Below, one piece after another: positions 10,903 through 54,650 of a DNA stretch of 64,000 nucleotides. The notes beneath the pieces are model-generated. The model was not told the DNA's origin. It did no database searches and saw only the letters and a list, made by a program, of their open reading frames with translations. The DNA lies in assembly GCF_036345255.1 (NCBI RefSeq), contig NZ_CP107783.1, forward strand, positions 6,866,001 through 6,930,000, in the 5' to 3' direction. The translations under genes and the position numbers were made by a program. This DNA is from Streptomyces sp. NBC_00569 (GTDB lineage Bacteria; Actinomycetota; Actinomycetes; Streptomycetales; Streptomycetaceae). The first letter of the stretch is position 1; every line of letters begins with the position of its first letter.

Positions 10903-11331
10903 GGCAGACGAGCCGGGCGGACGGCCGCGTGAGGACCCTTTCACCAGGGTTTTCCCGAGGAACGTCCGGGCTCCACAGGGCAAGGTGGTGGCTAACGGCC
11001 ACCCGGGGTGACCCGCGGGACAGTGCCACAGAAAACAGACCGCCGGGGACCGCAAGGCCCTCGGTAAGGGTGAAACGGTGGTGTAAGAGACCACCAGCGC
11101 CTGAGGTGACTCAGGCGGCTAGGTAAACCCCACCTGGAGCAAGGTCAAAAGGAGTCGCTTCCTCGAAAGAATGAGGCGGCTCTGCGCGGACGTTCGAGGG
11201 CTGCCCGCCCGAGTCCGCGGGTAGACCGCACGAGGCCGGCGGCAACGCCGGTCCTAGATGGATGGCCGTCTCCCCGGCCGCCGCGAGGCGACCGGGCGAC
11301 AAAACCCGGCGTACAGCCCGACTCGTCTGCC
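10903..11331 (+). ncRNA. rnpB: RNase P RNA, bacterial class A
   Basis: The ends form the P1 helix: GGCAGACGAGCCGGGC (10903-10918) with GCCCGACTCGTCTGCC (11316-11331). The conserved core blocks are visible: GAGGAACGTCCGGGCTCCACAGG near 10958 (P4 and J-regions), CAGTGCCACAGAAAACAGACCGCC, GGTAAGGGTGAAACGGTG, and TAGATGGATGGCCGTC near 11255. The 429-nt length and the tetraloops fit actinobacterial class A RNA. It is the catalytic RNA that matures the 5' ends of tRNAs. Exact transcript ends may differ by a few bases. Confidence 0.96.
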
Positions 11332-35355: not shown

Positions 35356-35413
35356 GCCAGCGAGTGTATCGAGCGGCCGTGGGGGACCATGGTCATGGCG
35401 AGAGGAGCCGCAG

Positions 35414-35647
35414 ATGGCCCTGTTCAAGAAGCGGACCGTCGGGAAGCCCGGCGAGTGGTACTACTGCCTGGAGCACCAGAAGGTGGAGGAGGGGCCCGAG
35501 TGCCCCAACAAGGACCGTTTCGGCCCGTACGCGACGCGTGCCGAGGCGGAGCACGCGATGGAGACGGCGCGTGAACGAAACCTCGAATGGGAGACGGACC
35601 CCAAGTGGCACGACGCCAAGGCCAAGGACGGGGACGAAGAGGCCTGA
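35414..35647 (+). CDS. Small conserved actinobacterial protein, 77 aa
   Basis: Starts at ATG 35414 behind GAGGAG. The sequence begins [20 protein letters not shown] and has an aromatic-rich centre with two Cys ([21 protein letters not shown]), then a charged helix ([20 protein letters not shown]). The helix after [11 protein letters not shown] recalls a half SPOR-like repeat, but I cannot assign a domain with certainty. It is cytoplasmic. It lies next to the aminopeptidase gene in this and, from memory, other Streptomyces chromosomes. Function unknown. Confidence 0.8.
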
Positions 35648-35697
35648 CGACGGCCCGTAGCCGCTGAGCGCCCCGACCGGCACCAGGGGCCCGCGCA

Positions 35698-35839
35698 GGC
35701 GGCGAGTCCCACCGGCGTTGAGACGCCGACGAGACGGGAGGGGACGCGGGGGCATGTGCGCGCGGAGCCACCAGCACCACGTACAGGCAATCAGCGTGCC
35801 GGCGTGCCCCCGTAAAGCAGCGGGCAAGTACACGCCCCC
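35698..35839 (-). repeat. 142-bp structured repeat, copy 1 (partly decayed)
   Basis: Aligns with copy 2 over 142 bases without gaps. The block from 35749 to 35780 (GCGGGGGCATGTGCGCGCGG and on) is identical, while the far end differs at several positions and the inner stem seen in the other copies no longer pairs. The element is read on the minus strand by comparison with copy 3. It fills most of the 445-bp gap between the small gene and the next minus-strand gene. Confidence 0.85.
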
Positions 35840-35861
35840 TGGAATTCGCCGTCAGAGGGAG

Positions 35862-36019
35862 GGCGGCGAGTCCCACCGGCGGTGAGACGCCGACGAGACG
35901 GGAGGGGACGCGGGGGCATGTGCGCGCGGAGCCACCAGCACCACGCACAGGCAATCAGCTCGCCGGCGTGCCCCCGTAGAACAGCGAGCACGTACATGCC
36001 CCCGCGGCCCCGCACCCGA
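35862..36019 (-). repeat. 142-bp structured repeat, copy 2
   Basis: Starts 164 bp after copy 1, in the same direction, and shares its right end (GCGGCCCCGCACCCGA) with copy 3. Read on the minus strand it has an outer stem GCGGGGGCATGTACGTGC with GCGCGCACATGCCCCCGC (one mismatch and one wobble in 18 bp), an inner stem GCTCGC/GCGAGC, and a separate hairpin at 35870-35888. The rest of the gap to 36092 is C/A-rich and also resembles the flank of copy 3. Confidence 0.85.
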
Positions 36020-36092
36020 CAACACAACGGCCACAGACGCCCCGCACCCAAAAAAGCACCACCACCCACCACCCACCCTTCGAGCGAGCCTC

Positions 36093-36695
36093 CTACCACC
36101 CCGCGGGCGGCGGCGAAGTCAGATGATCCGCCAGGCGGGACAGCCGATCGCGGAAGCGCCGCCGGGGCCCCCGGGCCGGCCCTCCGCCGGGATTCTCGCC
36201 CGCCGCCGCGCTGACCAGATGCTGCGCCGTATCGAGGTCGAGATCAGGCCCGGGCGTGAGGGCCTCATGAGCCATGGCATGCAGATCGCGGTCACCCGAG
36301 TCGATCGCCAGAACCGTGGCCCCCGCCCGCCGAGCGTCATGCACCCGCTCCAGCAACTCCTCACCGGGCGCCCCGGGCGCCACGACCAGCAGGGTCTCGC
36401 CCCGTCGGGCCGCCTCGATGCGCCCGAGCCCCACGGCAAGATGGGCCGGATCCCCACCCCCCGCCCGGTGCCGCACGAGCGTGGGCGACAGCTCGGGCAT
36501 GCCGGACCAGGCGGCCTCGTCCACGAGATGCGCCGCGAGATGCCACGGCTCGTACTCGGGCGTGCCGACGAGGAGCAGCCCACCTCCGTGCGGCACGACG
36601 GAGGTCCGCAGCGCACCCGCGAAGCGGCGCGCGGCGCCCAGCCACTCGGTTCCGGCGAGCACTTCCCGCAGCAGTGCGACCCGTACGGCGTCCAT
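36093..36695 (-). CDS. Conserved actinobacterial hypothetical protein
   Basis: 200 residues from ATG 36695. The protein has an alternating alpha/beta pattern (GALRTSVVPHGGGLLLVGTPEYEPWHLAAHLVDEA, GETLLVVAPGAPGEELLERVHDARRAGATVLAIDSGD) that looks like a Rossmann-type or SIS-like sandwich with GGD and DSGD loops. The C-terminus is Arg/Pro-rich. There is no signal peptide. I do not recognise a characterised family. It stands between the structured repeats and the sialidase gene, divergent from the latter. Confidence 0.8.
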   Translation of the reverse strand: MDAVRVALLREVLAGTEWLGAARRFAGALRTSVVPHGGGLLLVGTPEYEPWHLAAHLVDEAAWSGMPELSPTLVRHRAGGGDPAHLAVGLGRIEAARRGETLLVVAPGAPGEELLERVHDARRAGATVLAIDSGDRDLHAMAHEALTPGPDLDLDTAQHLVSAAAGENPGGGPARGPRRRFRDRLSRLADHLTSPPPAGW

Positions 36696-51432: not shown

Positions 51433-53190
51433 CTACCGCGCCGTCTCCCGCCACCTGTTCGTGATCGGCAGGCGGCGGTCCTTGCCGAAGCCCTTCGCCG
51501 AGATCTTCGTGCCCGGCGGGTACTGGCGCCGCTTGTACTCCGCCGTGTCCACCATCCGCAGCGTCTTCGTCACCAGGTTCGCGTCGAACCCGGCTGCCAC
51601 GATCGCGTCCGCGCCCTTGTCCCGGTCCACGTACATCTCCAGGATCGCGTCCAGCACCGGGTAGTCCGGCAGCGAGTCCGTGTCCACCTGGTCCGGGCGC
51701 AGTTCCGCGCTCGGCGGCTTCGTGATCGAGTTCTCCGGGATCGGGGGCGTCCGGCCGCGCTCCGCCGCCGCCCGGTTGCGCCACTCGGCCAGCCGGAAGA
51801 CCGACGTCTTGTACACGTCCTTGATCGGGCCGTACGCGCCCACCGAGTCGCCGTACAGGGTCGAATAGCCCACCGCCAGCTCGGACTTGTTGCCCGGCGC
51901 GAGCACGATGTGGCCCTCCTGGTTGGAGACCGCCATCAGCATCGTGCCGCGCAGCCTCGACTGGAGGTTCTCCTCCGCGAGCCCCGTCAGGCCCAGCGAT
52001 CCCATGTACGCGTCGAACATCGGCTCGATCGGGACCGTACGGAAGTTGAGGCCCGTACGGTCGGCCAGCTCCGCCGCGTCGCCCTTGGAGTGCTCCGACG
52101 AGTACTTCGACGGCATCGCGATGCCGTACACGTTCTGCGCGCCCAGCGCGTCGCACGCGATCGCCGCCGTCAGCGCCGAGTCGATGCCGCCCGACAGGCC
52201 GATCAGCACCGAGCGGAAACCGTTCTTCGCGGCGTAGGCGCGCAGGCCCACGACCAGAGCCGAGTAGACCTCCTCGTCGTCGTCCAGGCGGTCCGCGTAG
52301 CCGCCGGTCAGCTCCGGCTCGTACGCCGGGACGTGGTCCTCGGAGATCGTCAGGTGGTCGATGCGCAGGCCGTCGTCGACCGTCCCCGTCGGGGCCTTCG
52401 GCTCGGCCGCCGGGAGGTCCAGGTCCAGGACCACGCAGCCCTCCGCGAACTGGGGCGCCCTGGCGACCACTTCGCCCGCCGCGTCCACCACGATCGAGTC
52501 GCCGTCGAAGACGAGCTCGTCCTGGCCGCCGATCGTGGCGACGTACGCCAGCGTGCAGCCCGCCTCCTGGGCGCGCTTGCGCACCAGGTCCAGGCGAGTG
52601 TCGTCCTTCTTCTGCTCGTACGGCGACGCGTTGATCGAGATCAGGAGGCCGGCGCCGGCGGAGCGCGTGGCCGGGACGCGGCCGCCGTCCTGCCAGAGGT
52701 CCTCGCAGATGGCCAGTGCCACGTCGATTCCGCGTACGCGGATCACGGGCATCGTGTCGCCCGGCACGAAGTAGCGGAACTCGTCGAAGACGCCGTAGTT
52801 CGGGAGGTGGTGCTTGGCGAACGTCAGCGCCACGCGGCCGTTGTGGAGGACGGCGGCGGCGTTCTGGGGGGCGCCGGCGGGCTGGCCGTACTTCGGCTGC
52901 GCCTTCTCCGAGCGGTCCAGGTAGCCGACGACCACGGGGAGGTCGCCGTGGCCCTCGTCGGCCAGGCGCTCGGCCAGCGCGGTCAGTTCCCGGCGGGATG
53001 CCTCGACGAAGGACTCGCGCAGGGCGAGGTCCTCCACCGGGTAGCCGGTCAGGACCATCTCGGGGAACGCGACCAGGTGCGCTCCCTGTTCGGCGGAGTG
53101 CTTGGTCCAGCGGATGATCGCCTCGGCGTTCCCGGCGAGATCTCCGACGGTCGAGTCGATCTGGTTCAGGGCGAGACGTAGTTGAGGCAC
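51433..53190 (-). CDS. nadE: Glutamine-dependent NAD+ synthetase
   Basis: 585 residues from GTG 53190. The N-terminal nitrilase-type glutaminase (1-275) shows Glu in FPEMVLTGYP, Lys in FAKHHLPNYG and nucleophilic Cys in AICEDLW. The C-terminal synthetase (310-585) has the PP-loop IGLSGGIDSALTAAIA and ELRPDQVDTDSLPDY. It converts deamido-NAD with glutamine and ATP to NAD+ in the cytoplasm. Length and order match the actinobacterial two-domain form, an octamer with an ammonia tunnel. Confidence 0.96.
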   Translation of the reverse strand: MPQLRLALNQIDSTVGDLAGNAEAIIRWTKHSAEQGAHLVAFPEMVLTGYPVEDLALRESFVEASRRELTALAERLADEGHGDLPVVVGYLDRSEKAQPKYGQPAGAPQNAAAVLHNGRVALTFAKHHLPNYGVFDEFRYFVPGDTMPVIRVRGIDVALAICEDLWQDGGRVPATRSAGAGLLISINASPYEQKKDDTRLDLVRKRAQEAGCTLAYVATIGGQDELVFDGDSIVVDAAGEVVARAPQFAEGCVVLDLDLPAAEPKAPTGTVDDGLRIDHLTISEDHVPAYEPELTGGYADRLDDDEEVYSALVVGLRAYAAKNGFRSVLIGLSGGIDSALTAAIACDALGAQNVYGIAMPSKYSSEHSKGDAAELADRTGLNFRTVPIEPMFDAYMGSLGLTGLAEENLQSRLRGTMLMAVSNQEGHIVLAPGNKSELAVGYSTLYGDSVGAYGPIKDVYKTSVFRLAEWRNRAAAERGRTPPIPENSITKPPSAELRPDQVDTDSLPDYPVLDAILEMYVDRDKGADAIVAAGFDANLVTKTLRMVDTAEYKRRQYPPGTKISAKGFGKDRRLPITNRWRETAR

Positions 53191-53249: not shown

Positions 53250-53456
53250 GGGTGGGGTGGGGGTGCGTTTTCGGGTGCGCCGTCGTCGTGCCGGGTTGTC
53301 TTTCGGGTGCGGGGCCGCGGGGGCATGTACGTGCTCGCTGTTCTACGGGTGTACGTCGGCGAGCTGATTGCCTGGGTGTGGTGCTGGTGGCTCCGCGCGC
53401 ACATGCCCCCGCGTCCTCGTCCGTCTCGTCGGTGTCTCACCGCCGGTGGGACTCGC
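53250..53456 (+). repeat. 142-bp structured repeat, copy 3, inverted relative to copies 1 and 2
   Basis: The reverse complement matches copy 2 over about 140 bases without gaps, apart from scattered changes, and the similarity runs a further 60 bases into the flank (GCACCC and A-rich blocks). The outer stem (53317-53334 with 53394-53411) and the inner GCTCGC/GCGAGC stem both pair. It lies in the 413-bp gap between nadE and the lacI-type gene, in the opposite orientation from the pair at 35.7-36.0 kb. Confidence 0.85.
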
Positions 53457-53470
53457 TCCTTCGGAGGCGC

Positions 53471-53600
53471 GTCTCGTCTGCGGCCGTCCGGTCGGTGGAG
53501 CTGCTCCGTCTCCGGCGGTGGGTCTTGTCTCGTGTGCGGCCGGTCGTTGGGTGGGGCTGCCCTGTCTCCGGCGGTGGGCTTGTCCCGTGTGCGGCCGGTG
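53471..53600. repeat. 55-56-bp imperfect tandem repeat, 2.3 units
   Basis: Units begin at 53471, 53527 and 53582 with GTCYCGTSTGCGGCCG, and share CTGTCTCCGGCGGTGGG-like ends. The array fills the gap between the structured repeat and the LacI gene end. I see no coding signal in it. Confidence 0.75.
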
Positions 53601-53603
53601 TGC

Positions 53604-54650
53604 TCAGTGGTGGTGGGGGCGGACGCTGTTTCTGATCACTATGTGTGTGCCCAGGAGGTGGCGTTGCTGGCCCGGGCGAGACGTGCCTGTCAGGGCCAGT
53701 CTTACGGCCGTGCGGCCCATTTCCGCTGCCGGGATGTGGACCGTGGTGAGGCCGGGGGTGATGTCCGCCGCTACGGGGTCGTCGTTGTAGCCGACCACCG
53801 AGATGTCCTCGGGGACCCGCAGACCCGCCTCCGCCAGTGCGCGGATCGCCGCTGCCGCCACGCGGTCGTCGCCCGCGAAGACCGCCGTGAAGTCCGGCTT
53901 GCCGTTGCACTTGTCGAGCAGGTCCCGCATCGCCTCGTAGCCGTGGTGCTGGCCGAAGCCGATGCCGTGCAGGATCGCGTCCGCGCGGGGGACCCCGTGG
54001 TCGTCCAGGGCTCTGAGGTAGCCCGTTACGCGGTCCTCGCCCGTGGTGTTGCCCGGCTGGTAGCCGATCATCGCGATCTTCCGGTGGCCGGCGCCCAGCA
54101 GGTGGCTGGTTATCGCGTGTGCGCCCGCTCCGTTGTCGTACTCCACGACGAGTGCGGGGACGTCGGGTGCCGGTGCCGGTCTGCCGCACAGGACCAGGCG
54201 CGAGCCCGCCGCCGCGAGTGCCTGCGCGTAGTGCGCCATCCGCTCGCGGTACTCGTCGTCCTCGATGACCCCGCCGACCAGGACCACGGCCTCCGCGGCC
54301 TGCTCGCGCATCATCTGGACCAGGGCCAGTTCGCGGGCCGGGTCGCCGCCCGTCGAGCAGACCAGGGTGAGTCTGTTGTGCTGGGCCGCTTCCATCTCCA
54401 CGCCCTGCGCCACGGCCGCGTAGAACGAGCTGACCACGTCGAACATCAGGACCGCGATCGTCTTGCGTCCGGTGCCGGCGAGGGCTCGGGCATGCGCGTT
54501 GACCACGTAGTCCAGGTCCTTGACCGCTCTTTGGACCTTGGCGCGCGAGGCCGCCGATGTCGGGTAGTTGCCCGCCAGGACCCGTGAAACAGTCGCGACC
54601 GAGACGCCCGCGCGTGCGGCCACATCACGGATGGTGACCCGCTCACCCAC
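53604..54650 (-). CDS. LacI family transcriptional regulator
   Basis: 348 residues from GTG 54650 with GGAG upstream. The N-terminal helix-turn-helix is VTIRDVAARAGVSVATVSRVLAG (residues 5-27), followed by a hinge helix (SRAKVQRAVKDLDYVVNAHARALAGTG) and a sugar-binding periplasmic-like core (TIAVLMFDVVSSFYAAVAQGVE...). It would release DNA upon binding a sugar-derived inducer. It follows the transporter genes on the same strand. Palindromes GTAACCGGTTAC in front of the nearby units are its likely operators. Confidence 0.94.
   Translation of the reverse strand: MGERVTIRDVAARAGVSVATVSRVLAGNYPTSAASRAKVQRAVKDLDYVVNAHARALAGTGRKTIAVLMFDVVSSFYAAVAQGVEMEAAQHNRLTLVCSTGGDPARELALVQMMREQAAEAVVLVGGVIEDDEYRERMAHYAQALAAAGSRLVLCGRPAPAPDVPALVVEYDNGAGAHAITSHLLGAGHRKIAMIGYQPGNTTGEDRVTGYLRALDDHGVPRADAILHGIGFGQHHGYEAMRDLLDKCNGKPDFTAVFAGDDRVAAAAIRALAEAGLRVPEDISVVGYNDDPVAADITPGLTTVHIPAAEMGRTAVRLALTGTSRPGQQRHLLGTHIVIRNSVRPHHH

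Follow-up and report, generated by a model that had tools for sequence, protein, structure and literature searches.

A Streptomyces family of small structured interspersed repeats that looks like a previously unrecognised mobile element acting in folded form

Repeats of the ERIC and NEMIS type are intergenic sequences that are co-transcribed as RNA hairpins, the MIRU/VNTR loci of mycobacteria are tandem intergenic units of actinobacteria, and the units in the variable array of BOX elements are about 45 nt long. MIRUs are, to our knowledge, not defined by a covarying hairpin. The pneumococcal BOX element is described, in the parts of the report used here (PMC3049150), as built of modular tandem units, with a predicted stem-loop and an excess of copies between convergent genes, and its authors state there that this may be taken as evidence of mobile, parasitic entities. 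REPs are given a length of 20-40 bp in sections of PMC3733652, where GTAG REPs are said to lie often near RAYT genes, and ERIC and NEMIS-type transcribed repeats are named in a portion of PMC1590033. Here we analysed a stretch of 64,000 nucleotides from Streptomyces sp. NBC_00569 (hereafter the window) that contains three copies of a structured repeat. No description of this element was recognised among the papers listed by literature searches on Streptomyces repeats (MITE, REP, tandem/interspersed, and BOX/ERIC).

The window copies and their surroundings

Copies 1 (35698-35839) and 2 (35862-36003) align without a gap over 142 nt, as described in an earlier note made from the letters of the window; they are 94% alike and form a direct pair with a spacing of 164 nt. 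Copy 3 lies on the minus strand (window 53303-53456, genome 6919303-6919456) and makes an inverted pair with copies 1 and 2 at a distance of 17 kb. The opposite-strand match of this third copy was confirmed by BLAST (94% over 154 nt); the further similarity that had been seen in its flank proved to be only weak. The features of the two places are as follows.

35414 to 35647, plus strand: ORF of 77 aa without a Pfam match, upstream of copies 1 and 2 and in the same direction
35698 to 35847, plus strand: copy 1, a decayed tandem duplicate with a broken 3' arm
35872 to 35903, plus strand: last upstream unit of copy 2, CCCACCGG...ACGAGACGGGA, leading into the hairpin
35904 to 36011, plus strand: intact hairpin of copy 2, with arms at 35904-35927 and 35988-36011 and a middle of ~60 nt
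within 35904 to 36011, plus strand: core of the copy 2 hairpin, ATGTGCGCGCGGAGC ... GCGAGCACGTACAT
36012 to 36080, plus strand: 3' tail of copy 2 (GCACCC...AAAA...CACC), with weak similarity to sequence 3' of other own-genome copies
36093 to 36695, minus strand: convergent ORF downstream of copy 2, with a DUF4350 match under the curated cut-off
51433 to 53190, minus strand: NAD synthetase gene downstream of copy 3
53310 to 53419, minus strand: hairpin of copy 3, with arms at 53310-53334 and 53395-53419
53471 to 53599, minus strand: array on the 5' side of copy 3, with 2.3 copies of a 56-nt direct repeat
53604 to 54650, minus strand: LacI-family regulator gene upstream of copy 3 and in the same direction

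Copy 3 is thus oriented like both of its neighbours, the LacI-family gene and the NAD synthetase gene. Copies 1 and 2 lie between the small ORF on the plus strand and a convergent one on the minus strand (36093 to 36695), the latter being absent from the codon-usage gene calls. The close relative G185 has one copy only at the place orthologous to copies 1 and 2.

The outer stem proposed in the earlier note was found in both copy 2 and copy 3, and their RNA folds, taken in the orientation that copies 1 and 2 share, were better than 200 of 200 shuffles (z -4.2 for copy 2 and z -4.6 for copy 3). The stem letters given in that note are those of the plus strand at copy 3; at copies 1 and 2 the strand selected for folding (see below) is the plus strand. 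The fold of copy 1 was unremarkable (z -1.0, with 29 of 200 shuffles equally good) because mutations have degraded its 3' arm. Strong folding was seen for the opposite strand of copy 2 as well (z -4.8), and the direction of the element is therefore not given by folding energy alone.

Distribution, turnover and genomic context

Using copy 2 as query, 13 places were found by DNA similarity in the own genome (10.3 Mb), together with one fragment of 30 nt. A covariance model (R1) gave 19 matches there, 18 of which were among the matches listed (about 18 copies). Across 392 genomes of the genus the DNA search detected the element in 7 at E <= 1e-8, including the own genome, and R1 detected it in 108 (28%); a further model (R2), built on 86 copies, was positive in 48 of 121 Streptomyces genomes (40%). 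Covariance model searches of wider samples were positive in 37 of 147 genomes from the order, all in one of five genera, and in 10 of 246 genomes from the class, all in the own genus among the 103 genera covered, so that no member of the family was found outside the own genus in either sample. The genome samples, which were capped in size, comprised one genome per species, filters were stricter for searches covering over 40 genomes, and copy counts per genome are to be read as at least the number given. A pattern scan of named genomes retrieved at least 118 stretches, with 78 from Streptomyces among the 80 matches listed; a stretch titled Kitasatospora aureofaciens carried a copy cut by the stretch end, and an Actinophytocola bin carried a pattern match without paired arms. 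The family is widespread yet patchy within one genus and absent from the sampled genomes elsewhere.

A comparison of the window copies with Rfam identified no family, positions 35400-36300 giving one match (E 0.25) below the gathering score, and the sole match in the whole window was an ordinary RNase P RNA (10909-11329, plus strand). The element was not found by blastn in phage and plasmid collections. When IMG/VR was scanned, the broad pattern matched one contig with one copy (L242; R2 93.5 bits) and the pattern of the own subfamily had no match. A second subfamily with a loop of its own coexists in the own genome and in G185 (L060, L244, L245, L246). Two R2 matches, L283 (genome G197, 42.7 bits) and L282 (genome G119, 46.6 bits), have very divergent hairpins with other cores and are possibly distant relatives or chance matches.

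Many hairpins of the own genome are preceded by direct repeats of ~49 nt, the last of which runs into the hairpin. Of the 13 own-genome copies shown, most have a similar upstream block, which in several forms a tandem array with a unit of ~49 nt; including the last one there are 1 to 7 units per copy, and at locus L008 the array comprises 6.9 copies of a 48-nt unit. Upstream arrays were not evident in 16 copies from other species. Repeats of other kinds were observed nearby: a 73-nt tandem repeat of 4.5 copies lies directly 3' of the element at L009:1188-1513, and a long tandem array with a GC-rich unit of ~26 nt adjoins the element at about 600-1000 of L141. On contig 88 of genome G187 (L070), element units at a spacing of ~219 nt lie inverted on both sides of a LuxR-family gene.

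Three own-genome sites are shorter in G185. Two of them are 297 and 298 nt long in the own genome and 11 and 14 nt long in the relative, so that about 285 nt were gained or lost, and at the third G185 has sequence resembling the 5' unit and the hairpin is absent. Target-site duplications, which the earlier note had named as a pointer to a mobile element, were not clear at any of these three sites when compared with G185 (about 90% identity). A search for empty sites among the fetched loci gave 45 candidate pairs, of which two places were aligned; some candidates were elements that the pattern had missed (e.g., L005/L049), and the alignment of L237 with L161 contained a possible CCCGG repeat, the pair itself being ambiguous.

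Nine places are occupied in both the own genome and G185. At six of them the copies are closer to other copies of the same genome than to their ortholog, the margin being slim for L054 on the G185 side (0.828 vs 0.825), and at the other three this was not observed. G185 also carries two inverted copies, 17.5 kb apart, that are identical over 169 nt, and their orthologs in the own genome differ from them by 10-13%. The alignments of this one species pair indicate that copies have been homogenised within genomes. Some places are common to distant species: the birA place is occupied in the own genome, in G185 and in G126 (locus L218 from the named genomes is the same DNA as the G126 place over 4.5 kb), with one loop type in the former two and another in G126, and the L009 place is common to G185 and G321. 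A helicase place is occupied in two species (L298, L300) with different stems that are both paired, and in six genomes matched just once by R1 or R2 a long stem is still kept.

For the gene context, genes were called by codon usage, not taken from annotation. Among 196 elements, 167 could be classified, 28 had no gene on one side, and one overlapped a gene call. The 111 non-orthologous sites comprised 41 convergent, 54 co-directional and 16 divergent ones, compared with 29, 201 and 124 for the 354 intergenic regions of 120 nt or longer that lack the element; copies are intergenic and enriched between convergent genes. At the co-directional sites the element lies in sense direction 35 times and in antisense direction 19 times (p 0.04), and the complete-genome set, which has own-genome sites in common with the former, gave 34 vs 19. 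At about a third of the sites (35/111) no gene on the upstream side is directed into the element. A protein product had been thought unlikely, and this view was upheld at most places, with gene calls overlapping none of 88 sites and one of 196 elements. It does not extend to every copy, since a few ORFs cross elements elsewhere: a cruder caller placed ORFs across loci L051, L070, L071 and L072 of G187 and L052 of G105, and one gene call spans the L304 element.

Orientation relative to replication was determined for 116 copies in 12 single-contig genomes in which dnaA could be located (100 fetched copies, 99 of them recognised, and 17 own ones, taken from the copies listed; the listed sites left out are four from G007 and G117 and two from G270). 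Eighty copies are head-on and 36 co-directional to the fork. Restricted to non-orthologous copies, 57 of 87 face the fork (p 0.005; this set and the 111-site set have own-genome sites in common), as against 254 of 520 genes in the same stretches. For G007 and G142, whose contigs carry dnaA near the start, circular permutation was assumed, and leaving both out gives 70 vs 26. The bias is strongest in G221, G441 and G447 (31 vs 5); G117 (3:6) and G007 (2:5) show no bias or the opposite one.

Hairpin structure, folded strand and candidate partner enzymes

The unit is a single long imperfect hairpin of ~125 nt, whose conserved core is in part non-Watson-Crick. Read along the strand of copies 1 and 2, the 5' part has the consensus GGGG-M-CGYGNNGGN-ATGT-S-CGC-V-CGSAGC, followed by a variable middle of ~60 nt and the 3' part GCGAG-N-ACG-N-ACAT-NCCNN-CGCGGCCCC. 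The core, ATGT-S-CGC-V-CGSAG ... CGAG-N-ACG-N-ACAT, combines a constant C·A mismatch with an internal loop (GSA/GA). The mismatch is present in 40/40 copies of a first alignment (A1) and in 85/86 copies of a larger one (A3), and the GSA/GA loop is almost constant, which makes this core a likely candidate for a site read by a protein. Loci from the named-genome scan were picked by the exact core pattern, so that the core is invariant there by selection.

A1 was built by MAFFT alone from 40 of 42 distinct copies, extracted by the presence of both arms (copies with inserts or broken arms were excluded), and it agrees with A3. It has 54 double-changed cells, compared with 15.7 in shuffles; one pair occurs as UA, GC and CG and another as GC, CG and AU. 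Two of its 25 pairs are poor, columns 18-123 being unpaired in 32/40 copies (mostly A·G) and columns 32-109 in 11/40. A3 was fitted to the R1 structure, towards which its counts therefore lean, and 16 of 100 sources without a match at the threshold were left out. In this alignment 93.8% of cells are paired, changes on both sides occur in 17 of 25 pairs, and 192 cells are double-changed, against 46.7 expected from shuffles; sliding the partner by one column lowered pairing to 32-42%. The apical stem covaries too: one of its pairs is TG, CG, GC or TA in 109 of the 111 distinct GTCCGCCCG-type copies. The many intergenic copies and compensatory base changes that had been named in advance as support for a structured element were thus obtained.

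Two structural proposals of the earlier note did not extend to the family. GCTCGC, the partner in the inner stem, occurs mid-element in just 6 of the 40 aligned copies, all of them from the own genome, and the middle block TGCCCCCG (this strand), from which two exclusive folds had been derived, occurs in one of the 40, namely copy 2; copy 1, which lies outside the 40-copy alignment, carries the block as well. Damaged arms were seen in copy 1 of the window and in L049 and L054. In several copies of G321 (L061, L062, L064-L068) a hairpin of ~43 nt (CTGGGGGTACCTCCCAGGCCCTTAAGGCACTGGGGGAG type) replaces core bases in one or both arms; this is a second repeat nested inside the element.

A hairpin of single-stranded nucleic acid tolerates G·T and rejects A·C, and an inverted repeat read as a duplex cannot distinguish the two, so that wobble counts can test which strand is folded. 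Over the 25 counted pairs of the 86 copies in A3, G·T cells number 80 (in 11 pairs) and A·C cells 4 (in 2 pairs); 44 of the 80 G·T cells fall on a single pair, without which the count is 36 vs 4. A count on 50 distinct outer arms gave 43 vs 4 (119 matches less 46 repeats of counted arms and 23 dropped, of which 19 were out of register or poorly paired and 4 too short), and the GTCCGCCCG-type set gave 186 vs 4. All three counts omit the constant C·A of the core, where the opposite strand would read G·T. A mutational strand bias was considered as the source of the excess and found no support, as minor cells in the loop are about equally C-to-T (262) and G-to-A (249). The wobble excess without a matching bias in the loop indicates that the strand of copies 1 and 2 has been under selection for folding, as RNA or as single-stranded DNA. 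Folding energies by themselves do not settle the strand: with DNA parameters the selected strand is favoured in 68/86 copies, and with RNA parameters in 28/86 and 42/111, the non-selected strand being slightly better folded on average.

Y1 transposase genes were found in 7 of 25 element-rich genomes and in 6 of 25 comparison genomes, five of which (G003, G008, G024, G157, G197) later gave 1 to 4 R2 matches; without these the comparison value is 5/20. A link to reverse transcriptases was likewise not seen (7/25 element-rich genomes vs 9/20 genomes without R2 matches), and since these enzymes are no commoner where the element is abundant, an origin as a retroelement-derived repeat is not supported.

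Explanations and comparison with known systems

In our judgement the family probably belongs to the BOX/ERIC/REP kind of interspersed repeat, its members being small, structured and non-autonomous; dispersed intergenic copies, a stem-loop and tandem units make it BOX-like as a kind, not as a homolog. The suggestion that the repeat might be an RNA, a MITE or a REP-like family therefore survives as far as a dispersed, intergenic, structured repeat is concerned, and fails for a REP in the strict sense and for a two-state switch. Under the reading as a mobile repeat, a trans-acting enzyme would copy or move the element on recognising its core, folded in single-stranded nucleic acid, and insertion or retention would favour gene ends and the fork-facing strand. 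Against this reading count the want of an associated Y1 transposase or reverse transcriptase and of a clear target-site duplication, the core C·A that would be G·T on the opposite strand, the energies with RNA parameters, the fork counts of G117 and G007, and the three places at which homogenisation was not observed. Read-through from an upstream gene would place the same strand in the transcript as a very stable 3'-UTR hairpin, which would be likely to influence 3' ends or mRNA decay. A dedicated copying enzyme acting in trans presumably exists. A bolder version, which we hold to be speculative and rather improbable, is a hitherto undescribed copying system in which folded RNA or single-stranded DNA would be recognised through its C·A / GSA-GA core and copied at replication forks, into or over existing copies and without a Y1 transposase or reverse transcriptase; it would jointly explain the selection for folding on one strand, the fork-facing orientation and the homogenisation within genomes.

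The main rival to a mobile repeat is a resident role as a functional structured RNA at transcript 3' ends (a terminator, RNase III site or mRNA stabiliser), selected locus by locus with copying incidental. We regard this as possible without expecting it, and both roles may coexist. Selection for folding on one strand, where the counted pairs admit G·U rather than A·C, and the prevalence of the sense direction in co-directional regions speak for it, and the places common to distant species, the different yet paired stems of two species at the helicase place and the single-match genomes with long stems fit a resident functional RNA. It accounts less well for the third of sites without an upstream gene pointing into the element, for the presence in only 48 of 121 genomes, for copies with damaged arms, and for an orientation that tracks the replication fork when the genes of the same stretches do not. 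An ordinary MITE, with terminal inverted repeats of a DDE-type transposon read as double-stranded DNA, would share the inverted arms, the dispersed intergenic copies and the patchy distribution; recognition as a duplex predicts equal numbers of G·T and A·C where 80 and 4 were counted, the stem inside the arms covaries as well, and no clear target duplication was seen at own sites compared with G185, so that we consider this explanation unlikely. A REP/RAYT-type system, in which an IS200-like Y1 transposase moves hairpins of single-stranded DNA, agrees with the one-strand hairpin, the mismatches in its conserved core and the replication-linked orientation. It is nevertheless very unlikely here, given that Y1 transposases are not associated with the element and that its unit length and tags are unlike those of REPs as described in sections of PMC3733652; an HUH or single-strand enzyme other than Y1 may be the mover. 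Finally, a regulatory switch RNA with two exclusive folds is hardly credible: copies 1 and 2 do hold a second block able to pair with an outer arm, but among the aligned copies this block and the inner-stem partner are confined to one and six of the 40.

The probable mobile repeat would be of interest in several respects. It represents a strongly covarying nucleic-acid family present in 28% (R1) to 40% (R2) of the sampled genomes of a genus, its conserved folded core offers a concrete substrate that some protein may read, and in the species pair compared it points to bacterial concerted evolution among dispersed repeats of ~170 nt. The element could supply structured 3' UTRs, tandem arrays and inverted repeats, and inverted copies such as the 17-kb pair of the window could be routes of rearrangement of Streptomyces chromosomes.

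Compared with described repeats, the element resembles ERIC and NEMIS-type sequences, which occur in other hosts, in being an intergenic hairpin of similar size, and MIRU/VNTR units are similar in size to its 5' array, both likenesses being by description only. It shares with REP/BIME sequences, as presented in sections of PMC3733652, a palindromic intergenic repeat, a mismatched hairpin and possible recognition as a single strand, and it differs from REPs in its unit of ~125 nt, in the absence of a GTAG/CGTC tag among the invariant columns and in having no Y1 association. By description it is also close to BOX of Streptococcus pneumoniae, for which the parts of PMC3049150 used here likewise describe a small intergenic interspersed repeat with a stem-loop if transcribed, a variable array of short units and an excess between convergent genes. 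Judged from the same parts, it differs from BOX in its host, in its GC-rich sequence and in having its hairpin as one block beside the array, whereas the BOX hairpin is split around it. Beyond BOX, the Streptomyces element adds folding of one strand, as supported by covariation and by wobble counts, a constant core, a fork-facing orientation in most genomes tested, and homogenisation in one species pair; taken together, it looks like a previously unrecognised small mobile repeat that acts in folded form.
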